From NCBI GenBank assembly GCA_032358255.1, contig JAULBX010005553.1:1-64000 (forward strand): a stretch of 64,000 nucleotides of DNA, in the 5' to 3' direction. The notes beneath the pieces are model-generated. The model was not told the DNA's origin. It searched no databases and worked only from the letters and a program-made list of their open reading frames with translations. The DNA is from Heterotrichella gracilis. Taxonomy: Eukaryota; Sar; Xanthophyceae; Tribonematales; Xanthonemataceae. Within the stretch, counting starts at the first letter, position 1. The number at the start of each line of letters is the position of its first letter. The position numbers were made by a program, and so were the translations under genes. Shown one piece after another: positions 1,765 through 62,846 of this stretch.

Positions 1765-4700
1765 CTACCCTACTACGAGGCCCCCACCGCCTGCGAGGGC
1801 CGCCAATGGCCTCTTGCCACCCTCCAACCCCTTGCCCTGCAGCTGCAGCCGCTGGTAGCTGGCAAACTCCGGCACCACCATCTGCCCGTCCTCCAGTGCC
1901 TGCTGCAGCTCCTGCAGTTGGGCCAGCACCTCCACAAAGGAGGGGCGGTCGGCGGGGTCGGCGGACAGGCACTGCTCAACTAGCGACTGCGGCAAGGGGG
2001 GGAAGGGAGTGAGGGCCAGGGGGCGCACAGTTACCACTGCAAGGGCAGCCGCTACCAGCAGTGCCACGCAGGCAGGCACGAAAAGTGCCAATCAAGAGCA
2101 TGCAAGTAGTCCAAGTAGTGCAAGCAAGTTGCGCATCATGATTGATCGGCCTGACTTAGCAACTCGTGCAGGCCCCAGATACCAACTCCCACGCCGGAGG
2201 CACGCCTGGCACGCACCAGCATCCTCCAATCCCCATCCACACACCCCTCCTGGTCCACCCACCTTAATCCCCTGCGGCGTGTTGTCCGGCAGCTCCAGCC
2301 AGTCGTTGCCTGCCATCTTGCGCAGCATGATCTGGTAGTACCCCTCGCCCCCCCAGGCCCGCTCCCCCATGTACATCTCCCACACCAGCACCCCAAAGGC
2401 GTACACATCCATGGACAGGCTCATGCGGCTGGCGCTGATCACCTCAGCAGGCATGTGAGTGATGGTGCCAAAGGCGCCGGTGAAGGGGGCGCTGGCCTCC
2501 GTGGACAGCATGCGGCTCAGGCCAAAGTCGCAGATCTGGGGGAGGGGGGGAATGATTTAATAATTAATCCCGTATAAACTCAATAAAATAAATTTACAAA
2601 TATACCTTCTATTTTTGTAATCATTCCAGGCTGATCATTCCTGCAATTATTAGGAAGATGGTCGCATGCACTATTGCGTATGGTAGAGACAGATTTGAGC
2701 ACCACCATTGGCATCACACCATGCCACATTAAACCAGGCTCGGATGCAGTGTGTTGGCATTCTTGCCCCCACACCTTGTGCACCACCACCCTGCCCCTAC
2801 AACCCACCCCCACGCCCCTCCCCCATACGTCACCCACCTTGCACACCAGCCCCGCGCGCACATCCAGCGACGACAGCAGGATGTTCTTGGGCGCCAAGTC
2901 AGCATGCACTATGCCCAGCGCGTGCAGCTCCGCCATGCCGCTTGCAATCTCCTGCCCAGCCCTGAGGATGCGCGCAAGGTGCGGGGCGCCCCTGAACTTG
3001 GACAGCTGGGAGCGGAAGTAGCCTGCGCCAGAAGAGGGAAATTTAGGGTTCAGTGTGAGGTGTTTAGGGTGAAGGGGGGAAGCGGATATAGCCTGCGCCA
3101 GGGAGGCGGAGAGGGTTGGATGGCATGCGTGGTGTGGTGTGGGCTCAGGGTTGATGAGGGGGGCCACGTGCACTGCACTGTCCCAATAGGTGGTTCAAGA
3201 TGTACAGGAGAGGCCGTGGAATCCAACAGATTGGCAGGGAGGCCGTGGGTACCCAAGTTGCCACAGCGCCGGCGACATGGCGTGCAAGCAACAGGTGGCG
3301 CACTGACGCGGCACCACACCCACCAGCACCACCACACCCACCACAACCACAACCACAGCCCGCTGCATTAGGCGCCATGTGGCCACCACCCCCCCTGCCA
3401 CATCCACCCCAGCGCCCACCCCACCAAGCACATGCACGCCCCCTCCCCCCCCCACACACCACACACACGCACCTCTGTCGATCGCCTCCTGCAGGCTGCC
3501 TGCGTCACAGAACTCCATGACGATCCACGACTCGTACCCGCGCACACCCTCCTCGTACTCCTCCGCAGGCAGCATGGCGGGCGGCAGGTCGACATGCACC
3601 TGGCGCTTCACGCGGTGCGCCACAGTGCTGTGCTTAAAGACCCGCACCACGTTGGGGTGGGCCACCTGGCTGGCCAGGGCCGCCTCGGTGGCTGCCGCCT
3701 TGTCCGCCGCCTCCTTGTGCACAACCAGCTTGATCGCCACGTGGCGGCTCTTCCACACCCCGTGGTACACCCTGCGGGTGGGTCAGGGGAGACTGGTCAG
3801 TGGTACTACTCACATGTTACTTTAATTGATGGCACGTGGTGTGTGGCAATGGAAGACGCCTGAACATAAGGGGCTCGGCCAGGCACGCTGTATGTGCGGC
3901 GCCACATGCAACGGCATGCACCGCCCCCAACCTTGAAGCACCGCTGATGCACCCCATGCACACAACCCCGCATCCTACTGGCCACCACTTGCAAAGCTGT
4001 GGCCTGGCATGTAGGCAGACTCATCACCACCACTCTTCCCCCCGCACACACTCACTTCCCGTAGCTGCCCATGCCCAACAGCGCCCCCACTTGCACGTCC
4101 GCAAACGGCATGGCCTTGATCCCATTGGGCCGCAGCACCGGCAGGTACTTGCTGCGCTGCCGCGAGAAGGTGGCGAAGTACAGGCCGTCGGTGCTGTGGC
4201 CGGGCGTGCGCGAGCATGCCTTGATGGCGATGCGCGCGGTGTTGTGGTCCAGGCGGCGCGAGGCGGCGGGCTTGAAGCGCACGTAGAAGCAGGTGTCCGG
4301 GGAGGCGGGGTCGCCCGGCGCCAGGTGCGCGCGGGCGCACATGACCACCGTGAAAGGCTCGGCGCGCGAAATCTCGTCGGCGTAGACTGACCAGGGGTCC
4401 TGCAGAACGGAGGCCAATTGGAGTGGGTACAGTGCTGATGGTGGGTGGGTGGAGGTGGGTGGGGTGGCGGGATTGGGTGGCGCATTTGTGGACACGCAGT
4501 ACAAGGGCAGGGGTGGGATAGCATGGGGCTGGATGCCCCTGCACTGTGTTCATTGACAGTGGCATGGCATGCACATGCCAGCTGCTCACAACATTATCCA
4601 GCGCCCTACACCCCAGCCAAGGGCACACGCAACATTACAAAACCTAGCCAAGGGCGTACCTTGGACGCCGGCTCCTTGGCGCCCCCCGCCACTGCCGCCT

Positions 4701-6620
4701 GCGCCACAAACAGCTCCCAGAAGGGGGCGCCCACCGCCTGCCCATAGCTGCCCCCCGTCAGCTTGCACCACCCCTCATCGGCATACAGCACAGGCCACCC
4801 CTCCGCATTCAGATCGCACAGGAGCACGCCCTCGGCTCGAGACCCTTGAGGGTTGCGGAAGGTGGGCCGCAGGCCGCCCGCCCTGGCCGTCTTGGGCGAG
4901 GGGGGCGGCGAGGCGCTGCGCAGGGTTGGGCAGGGTTTTTGCTTTGTTTGCCTGCCCGCCTCCATGTCCCGCAGCACCAGCTCAGCAAAGTTGAGCAGCA
5001 CCGTGCAGCACTGCGCGTCAAACTCGCGCGGCTTGAAGTCCAGCACGCACCTGGGTGGGGGGCAAGGGGGGGAAGGGGTGAGGGGTCACGGGGCAGGTGC
5101 AGGCTGCAGCAACGGGGCATGCATAGGGTTCTGGGTGGGCTGGTGCAGAGATGGAGACAGCGGCTGGCATAGCGACACCAGTGCGCTGATGCCCAGCCCC
5201 TGCCATCCGCCGCTGTCCAGCTGTGCTGTGGGTGTGTGTATGCAAGCCAGGCAGCAGAGGTGCGGCCAGTGCAGGGCCACCAGCAGCTTCTAAGCAGCCC
5301 CTGCGTGTGGGGTGGGTGCTGATACCCAAGGCTGGCCCTGCGTGGGAGCGTGGTGTGGTACTCGTATGTGTGCAGTGCAGGCCACTGTGCCGCGCTGTGA
5401 GCAACAGCGTGGCGTGGTGTGGGTGGGCAGTGCCAGGCCAGGGCACCATGCTGTGATGCACCCCCTCTCCCACCCCCACTCACAGTGTTCCCACGCTGTT
5501 CCCCTCCCAATCCACCAGCGGGCAGCCTGCGTAAAAGCGCAGCTTGGGGCCGCTCTTCACCAGCGGGTGGTCGCAGAACCTGCGAGGGGGGCAGCAACCC
5601 ATGTGGTCAGCAGGCGGGGGGAAGGGGAGAGGGGGTTGGGGTGGACGGTGTGCAGCAGACAGCAGGGCCGTTCCTACGTGCAAGGCCAGTGCAGGCGTGG
5701 CACCACCCGGAGGGCAACGGGCAGTGAAGGGCGTGCCGCACAGGCAGCGATAGGGCCACACATCGCAGCATGCAGCATCAGCACAGGTATCCTTGTTTGG
5801 GCGGGGCGCAGCACTGCAGGGCAGCCATGGCAGCCCGCCCCCCCTCCCGCCCTTGCGCTCACCTCCCGTCTGCCTCAGTGTCTGGCAGCACCATGACCTG
5901 CGGCTTGAGCGGCATCACAGTCCAGCTGCACAGGGACCAGCGCTGCAGGAGGGGGCACACAGCACACGCTCAGCGCCAAGGCCTGGGGTGGTGCCAACAA
6001 GAGGGTAGACATGTGTTCCCAACCACAAGCACAAGACGGCATTGCACCGCGGTTCAACACGCAGGGGCACAGGCCTTCACCACAGGTACACGCGAGGCTG
6101 CAGGGGCGGCTCACCCTGTCCAAGCAGCCGTTTGGGAACCCAACTGCGCTCGACACCCTGTTCACGTGCTGGCCCACCAGCGTGACGCAGCTGATGGGCG
6201 TGTCAAAGAGCTTGCACATGAGCGAGGTGATCTGCTCCCAGCGCGGGTCCACGTCGGGAGACTGCTCCAGGAAGAAGTTGGAGCTGGCGCACCGCTGGGA
6301 CTCGCCACAGGCAACTGCACAGGGGACAACAGGGTGGGTGAAGGGTCTGGATATGCACCAGGTGGTGTTGCTAGTGGGCAGTGCACTGGCACTTGAAAAG
6401 GGCGCACCTGGCAGTGCACTATTGGCAAGAGTGGCAGGTTCTTTGCAGTAGTGGGTGGCTTACCTGGCGCCCCGTGGTACACCTCCTCCTCAGCAGGCTC
6501 GTGCTCATACGTCTTCGGCAGTGCATGCTGCCGCCTGGCTATGGCTGCCTCGATGGGGCACTGGCTGCTCCACGGATCTGGAGATGCATATGCATCGCAC
6601 GCTGCCTGCGTGGCTGCCAT
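1765..6620 (-). CDS. GAF-PAS-protein kinase (tyrosine-kinase-like family)
   Basis: Ten exons join in phase to 748 residues: 6464-6620, 6115-6314, 5863-5942, 5484-5579, 4660-5050, 4056-4399, 3473-3771, 2838-3022, 2263-2535, 1765-1986. A GAF domain covers about residues 70-190 (CKLFDTPISCVTLV ... GTLCVLDFKPREF). A PAS-like domain covers about 250-300 (EGVLLCDLNAEGWPVLYADE). The kinase runs from about 415 to 720: glycine loop GMGSYGK, VAIK lysine near 437, catalytic loop HADLAPKN (D564), DFG near 587, MPAE in place of APE, then DVYAFGVLVWEM and DRPSF. The HxDLAxxN form is typical of tyrosine-kinase-like kinases, but the usual HRD arginine is alanine. The start is the first ATG after an in-frame stop near 6810; no targeting signal is seen. 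The role is inferred as a soluble small-molecule- or redox-sensing kinase; the ligand is unknown. Confidence 0.85.
3011..3101 (-). repeat. Duplicated acceptor and exon start with TTTAGGG units
   Basis: The 21 bp at 3011-3031, covering the start of kinase exon 8 and its 3' splice site, recur at 3081-3101 with 19 of 21 bases identical. Between the copies are two TTTAGGG units (3042-3048 and 3063-3069). The upstream copy keeps a usable AG acceptor. Confidence 0.8.
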
Positions 6621-8712: not shown

Positions 8713-11700
8713 ATGCGGCACCCAGTCCTAGCCGCAGTGCTAGTGCTGGTGTTGGCTGCCCTGTGGAGTGTGCCAGTTGACTGTGCCTGGGGGCGTGGAG
8801 GTCGAGCCCCCAGCGAAACCCCTGAGCAGGCAGTCATCCGGTGGCTGGAGGGGCACGGGGGCAAGGTGCGTAGCGTGGGGGTGGAGGGGCGGGGGGCTGG
8901 GTGGTGGTGGATGGTGGATAATGGACTTGCACGCGCTGGTCCTGCGGTGGCACTGAAGGGTATCAACAGCCTGGTGTGTCGAGGTTCGTGGCTTGTGTGG
9001 GCGGTACACCCATGGGGGAGGTACTGATGGCGGGAGACAGGAGGTGCCTGAGCAGATATTTAGGGTTTCGGGTTTAGAAGATAGGGTTTTCATCACTGCG
9101 GGTGCCTGATTGGACTCTACTGAGCAAGGCCCCTACACTGCCTGAATCACTGAGGACCACCATCATGCTTGCCCGTCCCCCTCCCATGTCATGTCACATT
9201 TTATGACCACCCCTTCTTGCAGGTTGGGTTCCACATTGGCAAGGCGTGTGAGGGATGCATACGCGGCACCATCGCCAGCAGGGACTACAAGGTGGGGGGG
9301 GGATATGGGGACGGGTACGGAGGGGTGTGGTTGGGATCTTGCTGTGTGGCGGTGGTGGGTGGGTGTCGGGTTGGAAAGGGGCGTGTACACACCCTGTGGA
9401 AGCCTTTGGGTCCTTTAGTGCTTCCCAGGGTGGCAGCCACTTATGTCACCCCGCATGCATGAGCGATTCAAGTAAGAAACTGCATCTCGCTTTCCAGCAT
9501 GCAGGCCACAGGTCGTGCACTCCCTCCCGGCTGGGTGGCTGGCCTGCTCCGTGTGAACACAGGCCCCTGCCTGGTCCCCTTGCTGGGGTTCAGTTATCAG
9601 TGCTGGGGGTTAGTTGACAGCATGTGTGCGTGGTGTGAGCGAGGGCAACCGCATTGCCTTCGTCCCCATGAACTGCTTAGGGTTTGAGGTTTAAAGTTTT
9701 AGAGTTGGGGGTCTAGGGTTTGCTGACTGTGTGTGTGTGTGTGTGTGTGTGCAGGAGGGCGACATCATTGCCGTCATCCCCATGAACTGCACTATACAGC
9801 TGGCACCGGGGGGGTCATACTCAGCGGTGGGTACCCCTGCCCATGCCCATGCAGCGCTTGTCTCGCTGGCTGCCCCTGCCGCCCACCATGGGTTACACCC
9901 TTGCACATGCCCTTGGTCCATTGACGCAATGTGCCGTGCGTACCGCATCGCATCTTGCCGGCGTGCCTTGCTGGTTGCTGTCAAAGTTTGCGCTGACTTC
10001 TGATTGATACAAGCTAGATTGTGCGCTACCGCATGACCCCTGCCTTGCCACCCTACGAGGAGGTGCTAGGCAAATATGTAACAGTGAAAGCTTGAAACAG
10101 TGCACACCTCCCCTCTGTACATGTCCCTGTGTCCCCCCTTTGCCATGCCCTGGCCCTCGCGCCATTCCCACCCCTGCCCCACCGCTCCCACCTCCCTGCC
10201 CCACCCCTTTCCACCTCTCCTGTGCAGGTCTCGGCCACTGAGCTGTTCCGCATGTTTTACTTGGAACCTGGCTTCAACACTACGTACAGGGCATGGTGGG
10301 ACAGCCAACCGACCGCAGATGAGGTAATGTACTTCGCCATTGCACCTGATTGCTGGGCATCAACCCAGGAGGCTGCCGTTGGGGTTGTAAGACATTGAGC
10401 GCTGCTGCCATGCATGGTCACCATGCATGCATGTGCAAATGCCCTTCAGCTGCAGATGGTGAAAGCATACGTCAATGTACCTCCCTACTTTAGAGCTCGG
10501 ATGTATGCTATCATTACCTCTGCACGCTGAAATCTGCACCCTGCAGTCTGTTCTCCGTTTTGTGGCGCGAGAGTTTATGTGCGTACTTGTGACTACTCCC
10601 AGCCAATACCCAACAACCCCCCCCTGCAGGTGTTCGTCCCTGACCTGTACGAGCCGCACCACATCGAAATGCTGCAGAGCCACCACCTGGTGAGGACCAA
10701 GAGGGGGGTTGGGAAGGAGAGGGGAGGGGAGGGATTGAAATGGGTTTCTCCAGTTCACCTTGAGTGTGACCGCTGTTCCGTCGTTGACCGATGTTGTGCA
10801 TACGGCATACATAACATTTAATATATGTGGTATATCAACAAACATAAGTACTCATGTCACATGCATCATGTGGCATCCTTGAATCAATACTTAGTCACAT
10901 GGCACGACACATGGCAATCTGCTCTCCACTGCCCCATGCCCTCCCTCAATGAACAGTCTACGAATACTCGTTTACATTCTCACTGCTCCCCCGTCACCAC
11001 ACCCCGCCCACCACCCACCACCCGCACCCACACCCACTTGCAGGAGAACCTAGTTGAGGCCAACATCTACGCCGCTGAGTACATCTACAACGGCTCGCTG
11101 GCGGGCACCCAAGCAGTGAACGAGATAGTGGCCGAGGCGGGGGCCACGGTGGGCTTGCGGGAGTACAAATATGTAACGGCGCTGGTGAGTGGGGGAGACG
11201 GGCGGGTAGGCGAGGGACTGGGGGACGCTCAATGCATCCTATACTCCAATATACGCTTCACGTTGCGGCCTCTACACCCCGCCACCCGATGGATTTATCC
11301 TCTCATCCCAACCAAGAAGCATTTAGATTTGTAAGGATCTTTGACATATACAAATCTTGAGATGACACTCTTAGACAGTTTTGTTCATAAGCATCAAAAT
11401 CTGTGATGACGGTATCAGGAGGACTTAAATGCATCACTATTCCTAATTAATACCTTAAAATTATGCAAATAATTTAATACATTTTTCAGTTTTTTGGGGT
11501 TGGTCCCAGGTCCTGAGCCGCGCCTTCAGCTTCGTTGACCCGCTGAATGCCTCCCTCACCCACACATACATGGTTCCCGTGCTGGACATGCTCAACCACG
11601 ACGATAACCCTAACGCCGAGCGCAAGCAGGCGGTGGAGGAGGGGGGCAGGCCGGTGGTGAACGTGGTGGCGCTCAGGGCAATCAAGAAGGGGGAGGAGGT

Positions 11701-12727
11701 GGGTGGGGGTGGGGGTGGGGGTGAGGGTGGGTGGCCGTATGCAGGGGAGGCAGTGGATGGAGTGCTCTGTCTGGCATTTGCACCACTTCAGGACATTGGC
11801 TGATTGCCTAGATGGAACCGCTGGAATGCTGTGACTAAATCTCTAGTCCCAGGGTACCTGCGGAACAAGTTGGCTGAGCCATCACAGCTGGTGGTGTGAG
11901 TGTAAAAGCAGCATTGATACGTGTGCCATCCTGACTCTCATGGGGGCAGTTCTTCGTCTCGCATCCACTCACTTCTATCCCCACCACCCACCACCCCTCC
12001 AGATTCGCCACACCTACCAGTGGCACATCATCCACCGCAACGACATGGCGCTGCTCATCTACGGGTTCATAAACCCTACAGACCCTCCACTGCTGGCGGC
12101 GGTGGACCTACCGGGGTACAGCCCTGAGAACCCATACCAGGCCACCGACCCAGATGACAGCGCATATGGTACGGACCTACCAGATAACTCTAAACCCTAA
12201 ACCACAAATCCCTACCAGGCAACTGATCCAGATGACAGCGCATCTGGTATGGGACCCTACCAGCTAACCCTAAACCCTAAACCCCTACCAGGCAACTGGC
12301 GCAGATGACAGTGCAATTGGTACGGAACCCTGCTGGCCGATCCACAACCCTGCACCAACGCGGCCCCTCTTGGTCTTGGCTGTGCACCCCTTGCACAGCA
12401 TGTCACCTTAATCCAGTGGCCCATCATGCATCAAAACGCCAATCTTGCACCTAGCATACAGCCACACAGGCACCCTTGCATAACCGCAACCCCCTCCCCC
12501 CCTGCCCAGAGCACTCTGGGCGCCTTTTCAACCGGGAGGAGATGGCCCGCCTGACCGGCATCTGGTCAGCGCTGCCCACCACCGAGGCCGCTGACGTGGC
12601 GTTGCTGGCGTCGGGGAACGTCACCGACTGGCGAGACAGGGCGCTGCTGGAGTTCAGGATCAAGCGCAAACGGGCGCTGCGCAACACCATACACGAGCTG
12701 TGGAACACGATACACGAGCTGCGCTAG
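8713..12727 (+). CDS. SET-domain protein with signal peptide (LSMT-like)
   Basis: Exons: 8713-8865, 9223-9291, 9755-9826, 10018-10062 (tentative, or to 10077), 10228-10323, 10630-10689, 11044-11184, 11510-11698, 12003-12168, 12510-12727; about 402 residues. The SET signature is clear: DMLNHDDNPN near residue 240 matches the NHxxxPN cofactor motif, and NDMALLIYGF matches the catalytic-tyrosine region of the Rubisco-LSMT/SETD3-like group. A C-terminal helical part (RLFNREEMARL ... WRDRALLEFRIKRKRAL) resembles the substrate-binding domain of this group. Family members methylate lysine or histidine using S-adenosylmethionine. Residues 1-26 form a classic signal peptide (MRHPVLAAVLVLVLAALWSV), odd for a family that usually acts in plastid, cytosol or nucleus. 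The substrate cannot be deduced. Confidence 0.8.
9641..9790 (+). repeat. Pseudo-copy of exon 3 start, TTTAGGG-like spacer
   Basis: The first 36 bp of SET exon 3 (9755-9790) are matched without gaps by 9641-9676 at about 31 of 36 positions. The copy even translates in frame (EGNRIAFVPMNC against EGDIIAVIPMNC). The spacer at 9675-9720 is built from degenerate TTTAGGG units, followed by a (TG)n tract at 9730-9750 that leads into the real acceptor. Confidence 0.8.
11697..11730 (+). repeat. G-rich tract at a splice donor
   Basis: Immediately after the donor of SET exon 8 the intron begins with repeated GGGGGT units (GTGGGTGGGGGTGGGGGTG). Four or more runs of three or more G could form a G-quadruplex in the pre-mRNA. 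Confidence 0.5.
12135..12330 (+). repeat. Triplicated exon end plus donor with CCCTAAA units
   Basis: The end of SET exon 9 and its donor (12135-12175) are repeated at about 12213-12250 and 12286-12325, spaced 78 and 73 bp apart. Each copy keeps TACCAGGC..AC....CAGATGACAG and ends in a GGTA donor-like site. CCCTAAACCCTAAAC-type units lie between copies (12190-12203 and 12268-12283). Confidence 0.85.
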
Positions 12728-18009: not shown

Positions 18010-21000
18010 GTGAAGTGCATATTTGCCCAAGTCTCATGCCCCCACCCGGTCCCCCTCTGCAGCTTTGGCTATGTAGAGCTCCAGAAGGAGCTGCGGGCAC
18101 TGTTGGCACCCACCGGCCCGCTGCGCCGCCTGACCCCCGCGGACAATGCGGCCATCGACGAGATCATCCAGTATATGATCAGCGATGACATGGAGAAGGT
18201 GCGGTATGCAAGGCGGGCAGGCAGGTGGCTGCCGCCCGTCCTTGCCATCATGCATCACATTCTGCACACCAATTAAGTACCAGGGCAGCTCTCCTTCTCA
18301 CAAGCATGGATGCATGGCAAGTGGGGGAGGAGAGCTTGACTCCATCCCCATATTGTACAGAACCTTGAGCTATGGTTCGGCAAGGCCGGAGCCACGGACC
18401 GCGAGATCCTGCTGCGCTTTGGCGAGCACGTGACGCTTGCGTCCAAGGGGTTCTACAGCCACTGGGAGGCGGTGCCACGTGGCAGGCTGGCGCTGCTCAT
18501 ACTCATGGACCAGGTGGGGGGGGAATTATCAATTTTTTTTGTTTGTTCTGCATATGTGTTATTCTTCTTTATGTGGTACCTGAAAATGGGTGCACAGCAG
18601 CTGGGGATGAGTGTGCCACCGCAGGGGGTATGCCATGGCCCTACGCATTACAGCACGATCACTGGCTAGCCTTGTCTAACCCACGCGTCCTCTACCGCTA
18701 GGTGTAGATGTACATGTACAGGAGCAGACTTTGCTGTTATAGCGGATGGGCTTCAGTGGGGGGAGGCGATGCGGCCATTTGCGCAGGCTTAGGAAAAATC
18801 TTGCATCAGACTTACAAATGATGCAGGATTTAAATTTGGTAGAGCGCTACAAGGGCCAAGTGTGGTAGAGCGCTACAAACGAGCTGGTCACCGCACCCTG
18901 CAAGCTTTACCTGTGGTGGCAAGCAATTGCTGGTTCTGCCCCATGTGCCCACCATCAGCATATATAGGACCCGCACATACCAGCCCCCACTGTTCCTGCT
19001 GACCCCTTTTCCCCCTCCTGTGCACTCAGTTCCGGCGCAACATCTACCGCAACAGCCCCGAGATGTATGCGCTGGACCCAACATGCGTTGACCTGGTGCT
19101 GAGGACCATTCAGGACAGCGGACAGGTGAAACCCAACACCCTGCGCATTGGCCCACACCCCTTGCCCACTGTGGCGTAGCACTCAGGGTGCAGGGCGAGG
19201 AAATTGACTTGATTTTCTTTGATTTGATCAAGGGCTGCGGACAACACCATGCAATTTCATGTTCAAATTACCCAATATCAACAAGTCCTTAATTAGGCAT
19301 TTTTGGGGTAGTCAATGTCAGATGATACAATGGTGTGCCCCCCGATCCCCACCAGCGCCTGCGCACCCCCCCGCAGGCCTCCTTCGCCGTGATTGAGTGG
19401 GTGTTCTTCTGCCTGGTCCTGACCCACACTGAGGACGTGGTGCTGCAGCGTGAGTGCGTGAGCCAGTGGGACCAGGCGGCAAAAAGGCTGGATCGCGATG
19501 ACCTGCTGCACGTGTTCAGGGAGGTGTTCGTGAGGCACGTCAAAGTGGTGAGTGTGCAGGGTTGAGGGGGTAGGGCGCTGGTGAGGCGCGTCAACTTGAT
19601 GAGTTTCTATAAATTAGGAGTTGAGGTTAGCATGTTCGTGAGGAGCGTCAACATGGTGAGTGTTTAGGGTATAAATGGACAAATATGGAGGTAGGAGTCA
19701 GCTCTAAGGAATTTGTGTGCTGACATGCCCAAGCTCAGCTGGTAATGGTGTTGCTCTCCTCTACCCCATCTGCCTCATATAGTAGTGCAAGACCTTGCAT
19801 CACCCCAACATCACCTGCACATTCTCCGCCACATTCACTATATCCGCCCGCATCTCCCATCCGAGCACTCTTTATTGACCCTTGCAGGTTGAGCGCTTTG
19901 GCTGCTTCCCCCACCGCAACGCCCTGCTGTGCCGCCCCACCACCCCTGAGGAGCAGGCATTCATGGATGATGGGGCGTTCAGATTCGACCTGCCGCTGCG
20001 CAAGCTGCCGGACGGGCGCTTCACATTCATGCCACGCGGGCGCATTGCGGTGAGACGCGGGCGGCGGAGGGTGCAGAGGATGGAAAAGGGAAACATGCTG
20101 ATGCACATGGTCCTTGTGCAAGGATCATCTGTGTTTTTGATGCATGCATGTGGGGTTGTGCCATGCATGTCAATGCTGAATGCAGGAATCCCTGGTTGAA
20201 TCCCTCTGATTGTTTCCCCATGTGAGGGCTGTTTTGGCCATGCTTGCAGCTGCACGCCGCCGTGCACAGTAATGCCATGCGAGCATGACATGTACCTGAG
20301 TCCATCCCCCTCCATTGATCTTGCTTATCGATGTTGCGCAGTGGCAGAAGGCGCGCAGCGCCGTGCGCCGCCACCTCATTGCACGCAAGTTTGGGTTCAT
20401 GCTGACTCAGTCCAGCAGCGGCAGCATGGACGCTGCACTGGCTGAGCTGGAGACTAGCGAGGCCACTCACGGGGACATTGTGGTGTTCACCATAGACGGG
20501 GACCAGGGCACCCCGCCGGAGAACTCCATGTTCCTGCGCGTGGGTGACATGGCGCCAGACTTCAAGGCACAGGTGCGGACGTAAAATCTAGCCCCCAGTC
20601 CTGGCAGGGGTTCCTGGTCAGAGCTGCGCATGTCATGGACTGGCCGGTGTCCGCCTCCACAAATATGCATGCATGGCAATGTGCTTACTCGGGAGCATTG
20701 CTGCACCTGGAGCAAACAACGAGAGATGGCAGGGGAGAGCAGAACATGTAATGTTTTTGCTACAATTGAACTCCATGCCTGTGCCACTGCTGGTATACAC
20801 CTTCATGTCATCTGCTAATATCATCCGCCAGACCCCCAACTTCACATGATTGCTGACATGCCCCTGCAGAGCCAGCTTGGCCCCCTGTCGCTGTATGACT
20901 ACCTTGGCACCGGCTGGGGTGTGCTCCTCACCTTCCCGCCCCTGCCCACGGGTGTGTGCGGCAGCGAGCTAGCAAAGCTGGCGGCGCTGGAGGCGGCAGG

Positions 21001-30361: not shown

Positions 30362-33300
30362 ATGAGCCAACAGCCTGAAGGAGGAGCTGCTGAGGCGGAG
30401 GTTGACACGGTACAGGAGGAGACTTTTGAAGTGTGGGAGAACCAGCGATTCTATGGCATCACCTGGTGCGCGGTGGCCTCCTGCATACGCATACAATAAA
30501 CCACCCTGTGCCTGCCACTCTCCCACACCCTGTGCGCCCAACTCCCGATACACACCCGCAGCGCTGAAGCCTCCTTAGCTCTGTTGCTACCCCATTCCTT
30601 CCACTCCACTGCCACCGCACTACCCCTGCAAACCCCACCCCCACCGCACTCACATCGCAGTCACACCCACACCCATACCACACCCATGCCCAATAGCCCA
30701 TTCACCGGTCCCCCCCGCACGCTGCCCTGCAGGCAGTCTCCAGCCCTCCTTGACCGCCCCGGGCTGAGCGATGCCGCTGGCCACCCGGTGCACATGGCCA
30801 AGCCCCCACCCCATGACCCCGACACCTGGGAGCTGGTGGTCAACCTGCGCACTGATTCGCATGGCTGGGAGTACGGCTCGGTGTTCAAGTGCGTGTGAGG
30901 GGATGGAGGGGTGGCAGCAAGGGTGGTGCAGGGTGTGGTGGCGAGTGCATGGAGCTGCCTTGGAAACGGGAGTTCACTGCACAGTGGGCAGTGGTGGCGC
31001 TGGATTGTCTTGCCAGTCAGTCAGGGGGCACAATCATGGAATGGATTCAGCCATGGTGGCATGGAGCGTGAGCATTGTGATCATCTGGATCCAATGCCCC
31101 ATGTCATCTGCAGCTGCGGAAGTCAAATGACACCAGGCGCATTTCCGCTCAGTGCCTGTCCACCTGCAACATGCACATGACCCGCCACCATGCAGCGCAC
31201 AATGCCACTCCACCTTGCCTATTAAGGTCCTCACCCACTCAAGGGAACCCACAAAACCCTAACCTGGTTCTTTGCATGCAGCCACCTGGATGTGCCCCGC
31301 CCCGGCGGCCGCGCCTCGCAGCGCGTGGGCGACTTTGTGCGGCGCAGGCTGTGGCGCAGGCGGTCGCGCGAGCTGCAAGGGGAGCACGCGTTTGTGGTGA
31401 AGGAGAGCGAGGGGGAGGCGCCTGAGGGGGGACCGCTGGTGGGCATGGTGGGCTCAGCGATACCCTCCCGAATGCGGTACGTGTGTGTGGGGGGGAAAGA
31501 GGGATACCCTTAGAGTGCGTGCGTGGGTTGACCCGGTTTGTAACACGATCCATTGGCATGTGCACTGGAGTTGATTCTTAATGTGCACATGTGAATTTGC
31601 ATTCTGTGGCTTGGGTACTTCTGTGGGTGTCGGGTTCATACATGCGCTTCAGCAGTGCAATTAGATGTGCGGCCATATAGCTGAAAGCTTGGCATGTGCA
31701 GCCATGACAATGCTGCGCTATGGGATGCAGCTAATGGGTTATAATCAAGAATATAAATGGACCTTCCGTCCTCTGCAAAAAACATGGGATTCCAACTCCG
31801 GGCTGTTGATCATGAAGCACCCACAGGATGGGGAGTGCATCTTTGCATCCCATGGAAAAGAATCTGCAGCCCTGCCCCTATGCCGTTTGTGTTTTTCACG
31901 CTACTACTTGTTGCATACCCAACCCCATGCACGATCCCCACTCAAATGTGAGCCCCTGTACCCACCTCCCCCAGAACCAGCAGGCATGCCGATGTAGACA
32001 AGCTGATGTGCGCCTTGGTCACTGATCATTATCACATCTCATATATCGACCAATGCCATGCAAATCCCATACCGCTACCCATGCTGCATACCGACCTCTT
32101 GCTCAATCGTCATGGGAACTTCTGCAACCTAAACCCCCCCCCCCCACCATCCCCCCCCCCCCCAAGGAGCAGCAGGCACGCGGATGTTGACAAGCTCATG
32201 CGTGCGGTGCGTGTGCTGTCCTCCCTGGTCACCAGCTCAATCCAGCGCCACTCGCTGTTCAACCTCATGCCGTGGGACCCTGCCGCGTGGCTGCGCGTGT
32301 ACGGCCGGCACCAGCACCGCCTGGCGGATGACATGGCTGCGCACGTGGGCAGGCGCATCCACACATATGGGGTCAGCCAAGACACGCTGGAGAAGGTGGG
32401 TGGGCCTTGGGATTTTTGGTTTAAATAGCAATATTATTTTTTGCTTTATTATTATTTTTGAACTACAAAAGGGTAATTGGCAGCATTGGAAAATAGACAA
32501 GGGTGGTGCGCATCATTTTGTTGGGATTGCTGGCAGTGGCATGCGGAGTGCTCTTCATATTGTTGTTGGGTGGCTGTCGCCTGAGCCACATGTGTTACAC
32601 CCCCTCAGCGTGTCTAGGCTCTACGCATGCCGCCAGCTGACTTGCTGTGCAGGCTGCGCCATCAGGGCAGCTTCCCCCGCACACACACATACAATCAAAC
32701 ACACCACCCACACTGCATACAGTGCATCCCCCCCACCTTTACACCCCCTGCACTCCATCCTCCCACCCCTACACCCCCTCCCTCCCCCGCCTACAGGATG
32801 GCGCCCTGTCTGTGCGTGGCGACGCCGCGCACACCCTTGTGGGCGACCTGCTGTGCGCCGCAGTGCACTCGCGCGCCGCCTACGGCTACGCCATGGCTGC
32901 CGGGCATATTGCCTCGGTGTCAAAGTTCCTGCTCATGCAGATCTCGGGGCAGTTTAGGTGCGGGGAGGGGGGGGGGGGGGCAAGAACACATAGTTGCTTG
33001 GATTTGTACCCTGATGTTGGGGCAGTAAATATGCGGATGCATGTGGTTGCAAGCATGGCAAACATGTTGTGGCAGTCAGCTCCTCCCACCAATAAATTTT
33101 GTGTTTTTTGCCCACAATGCCGATGGGCATCCATCTTCACCCTGGTGCTGCAACGTACCTTGCAGTGCACATGTATCTATAGCTGTGGCTTAAAGTGGAG
33201 CGGGGATGAGGCATGTATGGTTTGGGATAGCAAACGTGGTGAGGTGGTATGTGCATAAGGTGGATCTGCATCTGGTGCTGCTGTGGTGCTGGCCTGCACC

Positions 33301-36300
33301 TACCCTGAACGCGCTTGTTCAAGGCCAAGCTGCATGGATATGTCTACTTCCATACATGTATCTGTCCACCCTGGCCAAAAGCAGTGGCTGCTTGTGCACT
33401 GAGCTCCATGACCTACTGACTCGTTGTCTGCAGCTTTGACCCAGTGGGTGGGGTATCGGTGGAGGCCAACAACGAGGCGGTGGCCGCCCTGGCCGGCATC
33501 GACCCCTCCGACCTCATCATGGCGGAGTGGAACAACGCCGACTTCAAGCCCTGCCACTACCTGGCGGTGGACAGGGGCAACCAGGCCATCGTGCTGGCCA
33601 TACGCGGGTCGCTTCAGCCGGGTGACGTGCTGAGCGACGTGAGCGCTGACCCCATGGACTTCTCGCTGGATGGTTACGAGGGGCAGGTGCACCAGGTGCG
33701 GGGGGAGATCTGTATTAGGGGTTTTAGGGGTTACAGGTTTTAGGGTACACATATTGAGGGACAGGTGCACCTGGTGCGCAGGAAGATCTTCTGTTTTAGG
33801 GTAGGGTTTAGGGTTCTAGGGTTATACGATTTAGGTGCGAGGGGCAGGTGCACCATGGCTAATGTGATTTTCTGCATAACCTGCCCTCATCTTACCCCAA
33901 GGGCATGCTCATCGCCGCTACCTACGTGCGCTGCAACACAATAGCATCTAAATGGCCAAGATTGCAGGTTAATGCACTAACCTAACCTAAACCCTAAACC
34001 CTAAACCCCAAACCCTAAACCCTATACTGACGCCAAAGGGCCAGGCCAGGCCATACCTTCGACTCACCACCCTGATGCGTCACTGCTTCCTGTGTGCATC
34101 CCACCCCACTCATCTCCCCACCCCTACTCGCAGGGCATGCTCACCGCCGCCACCTACGTGCACTGTAACACCGCGCCCGCCATACGCGCAGCAGCAGCAG
34201 CCCTCCCAGGCTGGCCCCTCCTAGTTGTGGGCCACTCCCTGGGCGGGGGCGTCGCCTCACTCCTCGCCCTCCTCCTCCACCAGCCAGGCGCAGCCCCCGC
34301 CACCCTGGGCCCCATCCGCTGCATCACCATCGCCTCTGCTGCCTGCGTGAGCTACCCACTGGCTGAGGCCATGGCACCTTTTGCGACCTCTGTGGTGATG
34401 GGGTCTGATGTGGTGCCCCGCCTGAGCCACGCCAGTGTGGAGGGGCTGATGCTGGAGCTGGTGAGGGCGTCGCCCATCCGCCAGGCGGCGCAGGGCCTGA
34501 AGGAGATGGTGGTGAACGGGTGGTGCAAGGGGCCGGGGGCGCTGATCGCAAAGGTGCCCAGCATACGCGTGGACAGCTCACCAGGTGGGTTGGGTGAGAT
34601 GGGTGGGGGCTGACAGGCTAGATTTGTCTCAGTGAGTGTATGCATAAAGGCGGTAGTTGGCACATGGAGAGCAGTAGTGGTGTTGGTCAATGTCATGGCT
34701 GTCATCCCAAGTGGGTTGGCAGGGCGGAATGGGGGGAACGGGCAGGGTTTTATGGCACAACGCGGCATGTGCAGCAGGCGTGGTGGCATACATGTGTTGT
34801 GCCAGCAGAGTGGTTTGCAACACAGGCATGCTGGCAGTGTCTAGGTGAGGCAGGTCAGGTCTTGGTAAAAGCTCGTTATGACCAGATTTTTGTCAATGGA
34901 AGCCACGCGATAACGCGCTTAGACTGTATAGGGCATTCCAAGCTCGCATAAAAAACCGAATGATTAATTAATGCTAATCAACCTTGCTTTTGCCCCGCCA
35001 GGCCTGGCCAAGCTGTTGGGTGTGGCTGATGACGAGGCAGCTGTGCGCCAGGCCATCGCCGCAGCCGACGCCGCATCCCCCGCCAAGCTGGCCAACCCAC
35101 TGGGCGCCACCACAGGCATCCCGCCACCCATGCCCGACATTGAGATGATACACATGGACAGCGCCAAGCGCAGGCGGGAGGCGGCGGCGGCGGCGGTACA
35201 CTCGCACCCGCTGGACTCGGATGAAGGGGATGAAGGTGGTGGTGGGGAGGGGATGCCGCCAGAGGAGGAGAGCATGGAGGAGTCTCCAGGGGAGGTGGCT
35301 GGCGAGTCGTCGGGTGAGAGGTTGACCCGCGTGAAGCAGCGCATCACCAATGCAGCGGATGCCGAGGGACAGGCCATGGCAGACTCTGCGGGGCAGAGGC
35401 TGGCGGCGATGAGAGGGGAGGAGGCGAGCGGTGGTCCCAGTGGGGGCGACGGTGGCGGGGGGGAGGGGCGGGATATGGGTGGTGCCAACACGCAGGGGAA
35501 GGAGAGGGATCTGCCTGAGGTGCGCCCTGATGTGGCCCCCAGGCCCTTGGGCGCGCCGGAGCCTCTCTTCCCCGCAGGTGCGCATGCATGCACATGCAAC
35601 GCCCCCTCAACAACAATGCCCCTTTTAAGTGTAGGCACCATGCGTGGGTTGTTTTCCAAAGTAGTGCCTGTGGTACCAACCCTCCTGCTACCGCCAGCAT
35701 AGCATGTGGCTATGTGCATATGACTGCTGCCTGTGGCGCTGCAAGTTGCGCAGCAGCATGGCATGGGGGGCAGGCATGCATCACCATCCCTGGCATCATG
35801 CATAAAACCTGTTTCCATGCATCCATTGCAGTACGGCCAGATAAGCAGTCACCCTTGCACAAGCGGCGCCAAGCAATACCTGCTCGCTACCCCCTGTTAC
35901 GTACCCTGTGTTCAGCTCACGTGAGTGACGCAGCCAGCCCCATCGACGTGCCTCACCTTGCACCGCAGGGCGCCTTGTGTGGCTCATCCCAGACCACGAG
36001 CTGCCCACAGACCCAGCCACAGAGCGCACACTGGAGGCCACAGAGCCAGACAACCAGCCAGCAGGCAGCGGAGGGGCCGCGCAGGATGGCGGCCCGCCGG
36101 CAGCCAATGGCGCGGGGGATGGCGGTGCCACGCGTGAGGGTGAGGAGGGGGGGGTGGAGGGCGGTGCGACAGAACAGGAGGTGGAGAGTGATGCTCAGCC
36201 CGGAGGTGGTGGTGGTGGTGGTGAGGGCGGTGACGCGGGGAAGGGCAAGCGTCCGCGCATGATCCTCGTTGAGGCTGACCGGCGCTGCTTTGAGCAGATC

Positions 36301-56373: not shown

Positions 56374-56498
56374 GCATTTGTTCCACGGAACAAGTGCCGC
56401 TAAACTCCAAGGGACAACGCGCGTGCGTGTTATGCAACTGCTACCCAGCTTTGTGCCAGAGTTTGCTGCTGCAATGCTATGGTTCAGCTGGGGTGCAA

Positions 56499-56574
56499 GT
56501 TTCCAGGGTTTATGACGTTGCGCTGATAAAGGCAGATTTCTCTGCACTCGGCACCACTGAGAGTACCTGGAAGC
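56499..56574 (+). promoter_or_regulatory. SECIS element, type II
   Basis: Lower helix: 56499-56507 (GTTTCCAGG) pairs with 56566-56574 (CCTGGAAGC) over nine pairs with one G-U. The non-canonical quartet is ATGA at 56512-56515 against GA at 56559-56560. Exactly 12 nt after ATGA comes the unpaired AAA (56528-56530). Above it sits a five-pair mini-helix (GCAGA 56532-56536 with TCTGC 56541-56545, loop TTTC), which makes it type II. The element starts 126 nt after the TAG. The middle helix has several mismatches, so folding should be confirmed. Confidence 0.85.
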
Positions 56575-58105: not shown

Positions 58106-59435
58106 TCACGTGGCACTGGCGTGGCTCACACTCTGGTCAGCGTCATGACCACTGCCGGCCACCACTAAAGTCCCCTCATCCTCCTGGGGTGCTGCTTGCA
58201 CCTGGGAGTCGCCCTGGCAGGTATCAGGTGCCACAACTGAAGTGGGCGGTTCCTCTGCGACTGCCACCACCTCTGATGTTGGCGATCCCACCTCGGCAAG
58301 TGCCTTCGTAGCATCTGGCGCAGTCAGCAAGGCGTCTGCAGGTGAACCGGGGGCGCCAGGAGTTGCTGTTGTGTCATCAGTACCAGGTTTGGCCCACAGC
58401 ACCCTTGGCCGCTTGTTGCTGTTCTTGCTCTCATACAGCCCACATGCATTGCACAGCGGTACGCCACTGAGCCTGTCCTTCCTCCAAAATGGCGTGCTGG
58501 AGGTGGCGCAGTTGCTGCAGACCTGAGAGAGAAGGCCAATCACGGATCAGCTGGGGCATCACGGGTTTACTAGGCCTAGGCTGGCAATACACATGTGGGC
58601 GAACAACTTTCAAATTTGTCGAGCACAACCCCAATTGAATCAACTTTTGGTCAATCAATGCACATAACGGTCGACAATTGCGTACTGATTGTGTAATGCT
58701 AGGCGCCGTCTTCAAGACGAGGCCATTGCTGACTTGGAATCATGACACCCGACCGACCTTGATGCTCACCTTTGACACGCAAGGAGCCTTGCGAGCCTTC
58801 TTCACGACAGGCTGCACTGCAGTCGAGGTGCTTGGATCGGAAGTCCCGCACGGCCCCACCAAACCAGCAGCGCACTCCTCTTTTGGCCGCTTCTGGCCGT
58901 GATCCTCCAGGGCGTTGGTCAGCAGCACTGCCCCAGGCTCATCGAGCAGGTCACTCGCCAGGAAGGTGAAGTGGGTGTCATCCGAGGCACTGGGCTGCAG
59001 AAACAAGGCCGAGAAGTCCACCTCTGCAGGCTGCTGTGGGTAGGTAGCGACCGGCAGGGGCTCTGGAACCTGCTGTGGCACGCCTTCGCCTGGGCCTTGC
59101 TGCGCATAGACGTTCTGCATGTAATTGTGCCACCAGTAGTACATCGCAGGGCCCTGCTGCATTGCGTACGCTCCGTATGGAGCATAGTTGGGGAACGCCT
59201 CATGTGGGGTGCCGGTGGGCGGTGCCGTGGCGGTGTACCCCATCGCTGCCATTGAGGGTACTGCGCCATACCCCAGGTCATGGTATCCGTACATATGGAA
59301 CGGGTACACCGGGACACCTTCCACGCAGCCCCCGATGCTCTCCGAGACGTCAGAAGAACAAGAAGGGGAAAGTGTCGAGGTGGGGACGGCCCTATCTAAC
59401 CCAGCCATCACAGGCAAGTTAGCAACCATCGCCAT
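58106..59435 (-). CDS. GATA-type zinc finger transcription factor
   Basis: Two exons in phase (58770-59435 and 58106-58522) give 360 residues. The second exon opens with the zinc finger: CSNC, an 18-residue loop ATSSTPFWRKDRLSGVPL, then CNACGLY. The C-x2-C-x18-C-x2-C spacing is the plant type. It is followed by a basic stretch (ESKNSNKRPRVLWAK). The first exon is Pro/Tyr/Gly-rich (VYPFHMYGYHDLGYG, YYWWHNYMQNVYAQQ) and ends with two basic clusters, HGQKRPKEE and VVKKARKAP, as possible nuclear signals. The protein should bind (A/T)GATA(A/G) sites in the nucleus; plant GATA factors control light, nitrogen and chloroplast genes. The start is the first ATG in the open frame, which continues upstream without one. 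Confidence 0.88.
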
Positions 59436-60393
59436 TGCTGCACACGATCTTGCTAACAGCCCCAAGGTGTTCACAGGCACAACCGTTCAACAACTACCGC
59501 TCCCACAAAGGCACGCGGCAACAACCAACACCCTGCCCCATAGCCTTCCGCACGCCAACAAATAAGGGAGCAGCTGTTTTCTGCGTTTAAACCCAGAGCT
59601 TCGAGAGCGTGCCTCAGCAAGGGTTCAGCGGAGCACAATTCGTGGTACGGGATGCAAAGTGGATGCCACGCTGGCACTCACGCCGTCATTGCTTCTGCCC
59701 ACATGGGTGCTTTCCTGCCACGTGTTGAACCAACGGTATGGCGCTTAGCATAGCAGCAGTAGCTTCGTTTCTTGCCAACCTGCTGACACACCGTTGCCCT
59801 TATCACGGTGATAGTTGCAGGCCTGCGGCAAGAGCTGCCAAAAACTTCGACCTCCAAGTGGCATGCAGCACATGGCCAGGCCTTGCAGGGTTGCTCCCAG
59901 CAATAAAAAGCAGAAAGCAATTTGCGTGCATGTTAAAATGTTGCTGTATGTGGGCAGGGAGACTGTAACGTGCAGCATACGCGGGGGCAGCCACTTGAAA
60001 GACACACTTGAGTGCGGGTATCCATACGGATGCAAGCCATTTGTGGTACCCAGGTTGGCCACCTGCAGCACCCCAACCCAGGGTTTTCCACAAGCTGCAG
60101 CACCAACTTCGGCTAGCCTTGGGTGCCATGGGCGGCACACCCCAAAAGCACTCCTCAAGCGCAGTGTCAAAACAAGGAGTGGGGCTCGAGCCAAACAGCA
60201 CGCCACTATGCGCACACTCTCTCCTGTGCCCACAGGCTGTGCTCAGCCATCGCACCTAGGGTATCCGCTGTGGCGCACCTAGGGTAACCCTGCTGCACCG
60301 CATACCCTAACACAGCTGCAGGGCACACAGCGTCACACACCTCGGTATCCATACAGCAGGGTTAATACCCATACACCAGAATCCCCAGTAGCC
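59436..60393. other. Intergenic, no gene seen
   Basis: GATA gene promoter and TRM7 3' flank. A pair of direct motifs GCACCTAGGGTA occurs at about 60257 and 60275, with ACCCTAACAC nearby, again telomere-unit-like. No convincing ORF. Confidence 0.45.
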
Positions 60394-62846
60394 TCAACCC
60401 CCCTTGCCGCTGCGGCTCAGCTCCATGGCCCGCTTGTACGCAGGCGCTGTGGGCGGCTGCACCGGCGCCAGTGGGGTGTACCCATCACTGGGGAGGTCGT
60501 AGGACTGATCCGCGTCCCACCCCGATAGATCCCCGCAGGCGATGAAGGGGACCAGCATGCGGGCGCGGGGCCCTTCCTCCCCTTGCTCCTCTTCCCCTTG
60601 CAGGAAGGTCATAGCGGCGTCATCCAGCAGTCGCCGCAGGTGGGCGGGGGCGAAGCCGGGGGGCGGGGCATAGGCGCGGCACACAACAAAGGCCTCTGCA
60701 GGGCATGGGTGGGGCTGGGTGGGTGGGTGACATGGCTGTGGCTAGGGGCTACAGCAGGGTGCATGTGCGCCTGCATATCGGTGGGACCCCTCTGCCTGGC
60801 CCCAGATCCGCACATGCCATGCATTTTAGTAAAGAGCATGGTGGTGGCTTTCTTGAGCAAAGCATACCCTGCATCACATGCAGCGCATGTCGTGACCTAC
60901 CCTCCGCCGGTGCATGAAGGGTCCCTGTGCACTGCTGCAAGTTGCAATCAGAGGCAGTGCACCTTGCCCGCACCTATGCTAGAATTCCTGCTGCTCTTAG
61001 GCTTTGCCACTGTCACTTCTGGGAAGAACACCTTGAGCTGCAGCCACATGCGCATGGTTAAGTGGGTCAGGCGGGGCGGCAGGTGGGCATGCATGTTGTA
61101 CCATCGCCGCGTATGGTGTGGTAAGGGCATGCCATCCTGCTTCTATTGCGGAGTGTGTGCCTACTACATCAGTGCACATGCACTGGTTCTCAATGCCGCC
61201 ATGCACTGCCATGCTGCCAGCTGGGAACGGGGCATTTGCTAGGCATGTTTCCATTCATGCACCATCAGCCACATCCCCAATCCGCATGAGACATTCAACG
61301 CACGCCTCACCACCGCTTCCAGTCCACCCTACACCCGGCAGTACAGCAGGTAAGTCCTGCCCCAAACCCTAAGCCCTACCCCAAACACAAACCCTAAGTC
61401 CCCACCTGCGAGTACAGCAGGATGATATCCTTGTCCCAAACCTAAATTGTAGACCCTGCACCCAGCCCCTACCTGCGAGTACAGCAGGCTAAAAGCCTGC
61501 CTATAAACACTAAACCCTCCCCCTCACCACACATACCCTACGCCCCTACCTGCGAGTACAGCAGGCTGATGTCCTTCCCCCTGAACACCTTGGCCACAAA
61601 GGTGCCCCCCAGCCGCAGCACGTGCGTGACCACAGTCATTGCAGCCAGGATGAGCTGCGCCTGAACAAACTCGTCGAGGTCGTGCAGGCCGGTCACTGCG
61701 GCATGGGGGGGAGTGCAATACATGGTGAGGGAAGGGAAGGTAGATGCAGGGGGCATGCCAGACGGTGAGAGGAGGGGCGCCACACTTGGTGCTGGGAAGT
61801 CAGAGCAACAGGAGCACTCCATGCATGCTAGGCCTGAAATACCATTCACCCACGCCAAGTTACGCGCTGCGCCTCCCCAGCTCAGCTCCCCTCACCCTTC
61901 GTATACCTCCCCCACCCCCAAACCCGCTCACCATCCGGCGCCCCGTCCGACACCACCAGGTCCGCCTGCTGGCCCCGGAAGTGGCTGATCACCTCCTGCG
62001 CAGTGGCCTCGCTGGTGATGTCCCCCTGGAGCTGAGTCACGCCCTCGATGGCCGCCATGGGCTGCAGGTCAACGGACACAATCTTGGGCAGGTCGGTGGT
62101 TCTGCGCGTGTGGGGTGTGGCGGTGGTGTTGGCACGCGTGCAAGGCTGGTGATCAATCCACGCCACGCACTGGTGGGGTGTGGCGTCAATAGATGCACTG
62201 GCACTCTGCTCATCCATGCATGCACAGGTGTGTTCATGAGTATATGGCAAAGCACCTCGCACCCTGTGCACCCCCCTACCTCCTCCCACAAGTCACGGAT
62301 GCCCACCCTGGTCAAGGGGCCATGTATTATACTCGCAGCCCGCTCGGCGCACACAGTGGGACACGCCCCTCCCATGTAGCCACCAACCCCGACAACCCGC
62401 AGGCAGCCCCACATGCACACACACCACCACCGCTCACCTCCCCTGCGCCAGCGCCGGCAGGTACAGCCTCCGGCTCAGCACCTGGCTCCAGCTGCCGGGG
62501 GCGGCGCACAGGTCAACCGCGTGCTGCACACCTGGGTGCGCAGGCGGTGGGTGGGGTTCAGGGGCGGGGGCAAGGGCATTAAGCACAGGGGTACACAGCG
62601 GTGGGTGCTACAGGCACTGTAGGCTGAGTGTGAAGCAATGGCGCCGGGAGGGTGTTTGCACCATGCCCACTGGCGACTAGCTTTGCCCCCAAGGGCGTGC
62701 AAGCTGCTTTGATGTAGCCACGTGCCTGTGAATATGTCGAACGCCTCATCTATCTGTAGCAGCTTGAAGGCGCTGCGCGCCCTCCACCCCTCCTCCTTGG
62801 CCTTGCGGTAGTAGATGTCGCGCTTGTCCTTGGAGGCACGACCCAT
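60394..62846 (-). CDS. TRM7: tRNA 2'-O-methyltransferase TRM7/FTSJ1
   Basis: Six exons in phase (62726-62846, 62438-62531, 61932-62101, 61550-61695, 60974-61037, 60394-60695) give 298 residues, the usual size. The N-terminus [19 protein letters not shown] and SAFKLLQID are TRM7-specific. [15 protein letters not shown] is the SAM-binding motif I. The K-D-K-E catalytic tetrad is complete: K28, D124 (SDGAPDVTGLHD), K164 ([11 protein letters not shown]) and E199 ([15 protein letters not shown]). The enzyme methylates the ribose of tRNA anticodon-loop positions 32 and 34 in the cytosol together with THADA/Trm732- and WDR6/Trm734-type partners. Intron 1 has a GC donor (ACAG|GCACGT), and intron 4 carries four copies of the exon 4 donor. 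The C-terminal part ([16 protein letters not shown]) fits the family. Confidence 0.95.
61336..61576 (-). repeat. Four copies of the TRM7 exon 4 end and donor
   Basis: On the coding strand the true exon end reads CTGTACTCGCAG followed by GTAGGGGC (61543-61576 includes more exon). Copies lie at about 61464-61490, 61400-61436 and a shorter one at 61336-61349. The 61400 copy keeps at least 15 bp more of exon. CCCTAAA-like units (plus strand) lie between them, for example at 61365-61372, 61392-61397 and 61510-61517. Confidence 0.88.

Follow-up and report, generated by a model that had tools for sequence, protein, structure and literature searches.

The window analyzed here, the first 64 kb (64,000 nucleotides) of contig C57 (JAULBX010005553.1) in the 68.5 Mb, 903-contig assembly of Heterotrichella gracilis, encodes genes in which short pieces of DNA spanning an exon-intron junction are repeated inside the adjoining intron, together with units of the telomere repeat TTTAGGG or its complement CCCTAAA. 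A preliminary description of the window had reported such copies at seven junctions in five unrelated genes. The same seven junctions were recovered here independently of the earlier coordinates, with outer limits at 3008 and 61576 (versus 3011 and 61576): acceptor 3022 (minus strand), donor 12169, donor 19548, acceptor 32167, donor 33696, acceptor 34134, and donor 61549 (minus strand). Junctions 33696 and 34134 are the two ends of one intron. Briefly, genes were called in a 304 kb sample (the window, a 200 kb stretch of contig C2, and ten further contigs sampled at 4 kb each) with a codon model and a splice-aware hidden Markov model (HMM) trained on that sample (217 introns), which returned a third-position GC content (GC3) of 0.86 and a splice consensus of CAG/GTGAG ... 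GCAG/G. Alignment of every junction was restricted to its own intron, alongside a mismatched-intron control. The main threshold for a copy was a score of at least 32 over 40 nt; the listing of 66 copies described below uses a score of at least 30.

The protein-kinase-like gene has its original acceptor junction at 3008-3031 (minus strand), where own-intron alignment is accompanied by Pfam matches to PK_Tyr_Ser-Thr and Pkinase. A telomere tract that reads TTTAGGG on the plus strand (3042-3070, plus) lies between this junction and its intronic copy (3078-3101, minus). At donor 12169, the original junction including its first telomere units spans 12139-12205 (plus), with a tract at 12190-12203 that reads CCCTAAA on the plus strand (minus orientation); the second copy, with its own telomere units, occupies 12207-12285 (plus) and is separated by another tract (12266-12284, minus) from the third copy (12280-12325, plus). 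The original donor junction at 19525-19553 (plus) has a copy at 19633-19661 (plus), immediately behind which a telomere unit is found (19662-19670, plus).

Two introns of the lipase gene are affected. The acceptor junction at 32153-32206 (plus) is copied at 31961-32012 (plus), and a CCCTAAA unit at 32128-32136 (minus) separates the two. In the other intron, the donor junction at 33678-33711 (plus) is followed by two TTTAGGG units (33723-33745, plus), a first copy (33756-33789, plus), further telomere units (33795-33815, plus), and a second, 18-nt copy of the donor-side exon end (33838-33855, plus). The acceptor junction of the same intron (34132-34171, plus), where a Lipase_3 match spans the joined exons, has a copy at 33900-33939 (plus), with a 39-nt CCCTAAA tract at 33986-34024 (minus) between them. 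Finally, the FtsJ-type methyltransferase gene, with a Pfam FtsJ match, has its original donor junction at 61529-61576 (minus), followed in the direction of transcription by a telomere unit (61510-61518, minus), a proximal copy (61465-61490, minus), a distal copy (61385-61432, minus), and a degenerate tract past the distal copy (61364-61397, minus). Across the seven junctions, aligned pieces are 24-69 nt long, which revises the 20-45 bp given previously. Repetition itself was confirmed, with one or two additional copies per junction where one to three had been described, and telomere units lie between copies in six of the seven cases, the exception being 19548, where the unit stands behind the copy.

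A Pfam scan was conducted on ten chosen joined-exon segments around junctions, and nine matched at E <= 0.001, among them an adaptin match that falls below the curated cut-off. The match clearly crosses the junction in six segments (kinase, lipase, adenylate kinase, decarboxylase, short-chain dehydrogenase, and KH). For the adenylate kinase and decarboxylase genes, the best solved relatives are 1zak and 6n2a (a chloroplastic diaminopimelate decarboxylase), which we take to be from maize and Arabidopsis, respectively, and both alignments are free of gaps at the junction. Among window junctions, the protein kinase match runs through 3022 and the Lipase_3 match through 33696/34134, and the FtsJ match extends as far as 61549; the 12169 segment gave no match in the scan, and 19548 and 32167 lie outside it. 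Junctions outside the scanned segments are defined by the HMM alone. The model of the FtsJ-type gene (60715-61549) seemingly lacks a short exon, presumably present in its relatives, which the 835-nt intron may hide. Separately, a direct duplication of about 44-54 nt, with a spacer that is largely a degenerate telomere array, was observed at 9623-9790, outside the HMM gene calls.

The interstitial repeat is the species' own telomere repeat. TTTAGGG is taken as the true telomere repeat because seven contigs carry (TTTAGGG)6 on the minus strand no more than 140 bases from their start; it also occurs in nine other contigs, counted without regard to distance from the contig end. Genome-wide, the dimer (TTTAGGG)2 was found 2845 + 2784 times, versus 2 + 3 for the reversed control and 69 + 38 for the rare TTTTAGGG dimer. 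The window contains 20 TTTAGGG units versus 4.67 (standard deviation 1.96) in shuffled sequence.

Copying of exon ends recurs across the sampled genome, and both ends of introns are affected, as had been reported for the window. At a score of at least 32 over 40 nt, 31 of 206 donors and 27 of 206 acceptors in the sample have a copy in their own intron, versus none of 206 donors and none of 206 acceptors in the mismatched-intron control. Exon-interior controls (60-100 nt inside) reached this score in 4/206 and 2/206 cases, and random intron-interior windows in 12/197. At the lower threshold, 66 copies (36 donor and 30 acceptor) were identified among 412 junctions examined, distributed over 57 distinct introns and 24 of the 46 gene calls. 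Copy density differs by region: the window, with 7 copies in 48 introns, is poorer than C2, with 55 in 139, while the ten other contigs yielded 4 in 19. The copies are direct; inverted copies at a score of at least 32 were detected at only 1 of 213 donors and at none of 213 acceptors. The median start-to-start distance between original and copy is 139.5 nt (10th-90th percentile, 78-217.5; maximum, 423). One array at C2:264530-264870 (L025) comprises six copies at a 63-64 nt period, in which an exon-like piece alternates with telomere units.

The repeating unit consists of an exon end, a splice site, a short run of intron (from a few bases to several tens), and telomere units. Telomere units had been described as lying nearly always between copies. 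While this is true of the window, a telomere 7-mer was present in 32 of 63 gaps between copies in the sample, which is nonetheless well above the 521 of 3150 control intervals (16.5%) and bears out the enrichment of junction copies near telomere units that had been proposed. When degenerate repeats were allowed, 25 of 61 gaps were telomere-like versus 16 of 183 control segments. Starting from the telomere tracts, 28 of 89 have flanks that are direct duplicates of each other at a score of at least 40; random places reached this score in 33 of 800 cases and shuffled pairs in 10 of 800. Inverted flanks at a score of at least 24 were found at 0 of 89 tracts versus 32 of 800 random places. Telomere sequence covers 13.1% of spacers, 3.6% and 3.2% of the two copies, and 1.6% of the sample as a whole. 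A tract of at least 9 nt is present in 38 of the 57 introns with copies, versus 39 of 149 introns without copies. Local duplications in general number 53 in the sample: 9 have a spacer shorter than 10 nt, none of these with a telomere unit between copies, and 27 of the 44 spaced duplications carry telomere units in the spacer, part of which may be decayed duplicated intron.

Tracts themselves are concentrated at splice junctions. Among 104 tracts of at least 11 nt in the sample, 72 are intronic, 32 are intergenic, and none lies in a called exon. The 30 nt that follow donors hold 2.7 tracts per kb, versus 0.24-0.51 deeper on the donor side; near acceptors the density is 1.11 per kb within 30 nt and 1.43 at 30-60 nt, with 0.26-0.61 deeper, and the intergenic density is 0.22 per kb. 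We considered the possibility that the near-donor excess is a gene-finder artefact in which stop codons in telomere units force the call of a donor. When annotation was repeated on telomere-masked DNA, the count in the first 30 nt dropped from 17 to 13 (13 of 66 intronic tracts), versus 4/38, 3/46, and 5/47 in paste-and-reannotate nulls, and 6 of the 104 tracts landed in called exons; with 13 versus 3-5 after masking, this explanation was rejected. The donor excess also persists in 153 introns without recognized copies (1.74 per kb versus 0.16-0.52 deeper). The preference of copies for junctions is partly due to better preservation of exon pieces, given that intron-only windows just inside donors reach a score of at least 32 in 4 of 164 cases. 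Nevertheless, since the tract-density result is independent of the copies, junction preference is not merely a matter of preservation.

Both telomere orientations occur, as previously noted, but they are not freely distributed. On the sense strand, units in gaps between copies read TTTAGGG in 13 and CCCTAAA in 6 donor cases, and CCCTAAA in all 13 acceptor cases (Fisher's exact test, p = 1.2e-4). These counts span 31 distinct introns and leave out 12169 (CCCTAAA), where the alignment took up the telomere units. In introns free of telomere units, the G content is 0.384 after donors and the C content is 0.437 before acceptors, so that at both intron ends the strand that runs out of the exon is rich in G. 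Across the 217 introns, CCCTAAA outnumbers TTTAGGG among intronic tracts read on the sense strand (49 to 21), which could reflect selection against TTTAG as a false acceptor. Exact tracts end in GGGTTT in 34 of 102 cases and start with TAGGG in 25 of 102, versus 14.6 expected at equal phases, and the order of neighboring opposed tracts, considered as a sign of telomerase action, was evenly split (3 GC versus 3 CG) and therefore uninformative.

Comparison of originals and copies indicates how the copies fare after they arise. Mismatches at codon positions 1, 2, and 3 of the exonic part occur at rates of 0.111, 0.113, and 0.188 (952, 958, and 952 sites), as expected if the copy decays neutrally while the exon is under selection that is looser at third positions. 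Function of the copies as alternative exons is therefore unsupported, since codon positions 1 and 2 differ about as neutral decay predicts. Splice dinucleotides are kept in 46 of 54 copies versus 1521 of 2143 exonic dinucleotides, a comparison that is biased by how copies were found. The median exonic identity between original and copy is 0.865, with a range of 0.70 to 1.0 (65 of the 66 copies had enough exonic sites), and this spread suggests that the process has been long-running. Introns with copies are longer, with a median of 438 nt (n = 57) versus 351 nt (n = 149; p = 4e-5), consistent with the intron lengthening that had been suggested from the window. Intron gain by duplication was considered and is not supported: donor and acceptor of the same intron are homologous at a score of at least 32 in 4 of 213 introns versus 2 of 1065 mismatched pairs, and only one of the four is in register and was judged to be a mis-called donor copy. 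Two weaker donor-acceptor matches (scores of 29 and 23) are also in register.

The preliminary description offered repeated repair of breaks at junctions, with telomere sequence captured or added, or template switching as the origin of the copies. Template switching that generates inverted copies was rejected on the counts of inverted copies given above (1/213 and 0/213), and the observations are best fitted by breaks repaired again and again with the addition of telomere sequence. Specifically, we consider it an even chance that the copies are scars of repeated break repair at exon-intron borders that combines telomerase extension with local tandem duplication. A staggered break within the intron, between a few and several tens of bases from the splice site, would leave a 3' overhang. 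Telomerase could then lengthen the G-rich 3' end leading out of the exon by a few TTTAGGG units, after which the telomere fill-in machinery would make the extended overhang double-stranded and end joining would follow. The overhang, comprising the exon end, the splice site, and a short piece of intron, would thereby end up twice, with telomere units as filler. The outermost splice site would remain in use, leaving the protein unchanged, and the inner copy would decay neutrally. Repeated events at one place would build up a series of exon ends, splice sites, and telomere units, and the intron would grow. Such a pathway predicts direct copies, filler whose orientation is set by the extended end, and persistence of the inner copy only where it is spliced out, as was seen. 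A G-rich strand leading out of exons would suit priming by telomerase and would yield the difference in orientation between donors and acceptors; G-rich intron ends may thus be what directs the process to junctions, with nucleosome edges or transcription-linked breaks as other possibilities. The roughly half of copies that are free of telomere units may be plain tandem duplications whose intron part or filler has decayed. Family matches to TERT, Ku, and PIF1 are present in the genome, with Ku-family matches at two places, and loss of Ku or PIF1 as a cause was rejected because matches to both families are present. At the TERT locus (L041, G000:C626), three tracts of at least 9 nt were observed (180-194, 362-393, and 490-503), all of them flanked by direct copies at a score of at least 32, and no tract of at least 9 nt was identified in the two Ku stretches (L039 and L040, both on contig C771).

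Several observations weigh against telomerase-primed duplication at breaks as the source of the copies. Telomere units separate only about half of the copies; in 19 of 32 cases they are found both between and beyond the copies, and the distance from splice site to first unit is often nearly the same for original and copy. Coverage is likewise high immediately left of the left copy (9.9%), versus 2.1% on the right side of the right copy. The 14 bases that adjoin a tract resemble the telomere repeat to the same degree on either side (4.63 and 4.70 matches), and the gap on the primed side is shorter in 13 of 21 pairs, which is not significant (p = 0.20), break points being blurred by decay. In the 153 introns without recognized copies there is no clear excess near acceptors (0.22 per kb within 30 nt, 0.87 at 30-60 nt, and 0.13-0.32 deeper). 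All tracts within 30 nt of donors comprise 6 TTTAGGG and 11 CCCTAAA, and the orientation at acceptors could reflect selection against TTTAG as a false acceptor; for both reasons, orientation does not settle the mechanism. Lastly, C2 alone yields 55 of the 66 copies, and a single locus (L031) yields all four from the ten other contigs. The chief rival accommodates several of these points through two steps, in which a tract was inserted near a junction by ordinary break repair and the fragile tract was later duplicated by slippage or unequal exchange. Near-equal offsets (such as 11/11, 7/7, 24/24, and 20/19) and units beyond the copy, in the spacer and distal flank alike, fit later duplication of a telomere-bearing unit equally well, as do the telomere units in successive copies of the regular C2 array and the coverage left of the left copy. 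Units confined to the spacer in 13 of 32 cases, and spacer coverage about four times that in the copies, are harder to reconcile with it. We regard these two steps as somewhat unlikely, although the present data do not separate them from telomerase extension coupled to duplication.

Other explanations have less in their favor. Capture of ready-made telomeric DNA fragments at breaks near junctions, with telomerase inactive there, would be compatible with the presence of both orientations and with the non-significant primed-side test, yet the tie between orientation and junction side (p = 1.2e-4) and the very short tracts (median, 14 nt) make it improbable. G runs near donors and CTAAAC-like branch sites near acceptors help splicing, and telomere-like motifs might thus be held by selection for splicing, with the copies being incidental. 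This agrees with the concentration of tracts at intron ends and with the exclusive use of CCCTAAA on the acceptor side, but it leaves duplicated tract flanks and exon-end copying unexplained, and CCCTAAA is at least as common as TTTAGGG near donors; we give this explanation little credence. That copies derive from pre-mRNA or cDNA reverse-transcribed back into the gene is very improbable, for although the pieces span splice sites and sit in genes, they lie a short distance from the original, are direct, and in many cases include intron sequence, in a search that covered each junction's own intron and a mismatched-intron control. Chance, low complexity, or assembly artefact is hardly credible as a general explanation: a single perfect pair, a 77-nt duplication at C2:222476 (L021), adjoins a run of N in the assembly and is possibly artefactual, whereas mismatched introns yielded no copies at the main threshold and the divergence of the copies is not what assembly duplication would give.

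Components of this pattern are known from other systems. Introns can be gained by tandem duplication of exon pieces that contain AGGT; there, as here, exon duplication followed by splicing leaves the protein unchanged, but in H. gracilis existing introns grow, and donor and acceptor are not homologous in register at a score of at least 32, with one doubtful exception in 213. In the portions available of a study of horse and human, short interstitial telomeric sequences are described as inserted at double-strand breaks, at times with a duplication ascribed to staggered breaks (simple duplication at 3 of 66 loci in horse); human interstitial telomeric sequences are absent from coding exons, with an intronic share that fits random insertion (PMC7215372). 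Like those, the tracts described here are short repeats of true telomere sequence inside chromosomes and are absent from called exons; unlike those, as far as that account extends, 28 of 89 are flanked by direct copies and they are concentrated at splice junctions. Fill-in of 3' overhangs by CST-Pol alpha, followed by Ku-dependent joining, generates small tandem duplications, and the role of CST in telomere fill-in is noted in the same paper, from which the word telomerase is absent (PMC8355091). The duplications in H. gracilis resemble these in being direct, local, and tens of bases in length, and differ in that 44 of the 53 are spaced and not adjacent, 27 of them with telomere-bearing spacers, and in that about half of the junction copies have telomeric filler; neither such filler nor a tie to splice sites appears in the accessible sections of that paper. 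Introner elements, for example those of Amoebophrya, likewise place repeats at intron ends in many genes, but are described in the sections available as carrying inverted repeats, with direct repeats of 3-5 nt over their boundaries, and as spreading as elements (PMC7789003), whereas each copy here matches its own exon and evidence of intron gain was not found. A literature search that included the available portions of PMC7215372, PMC6410037, PMC7789003, and PMC8226300 and left most subscription papers outside its reach showed no account of exon ends copied at splice junctions with telomeric filler. Collectively, the parts are known, while their combination, the junction preference, and the scale are new as far as the literature search reached.

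A rough extrapolation from the 104 tracts of at least 11 nt in 304 kb suggests approximately 23,000 in the genome. The usual view of interstitial telomere units is one of dispersed scars left by break repair; in H. gracilis, such tracts are tied to splice junctions and to duplicated exon ends. It is possible, if short of probable, that telomerase, when it acts at internal breaks, does so preferentially at exon-intron borders, and that this is a continuing process that shapes intron length and seeds duplicate splice sites throughout the genome, including within the telomerase gene itself. If true, this mechanism would link telomerase, break repair, and intron growth, and would provide a datable record of break sites within genes, with the exon as the conserved reference and the copy as the decaying scar. 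Duplicate, or decoy, splice sites would then represent raw material for alternative splicing, and the evolution of intron length would be open to direct test through a repair pathway.

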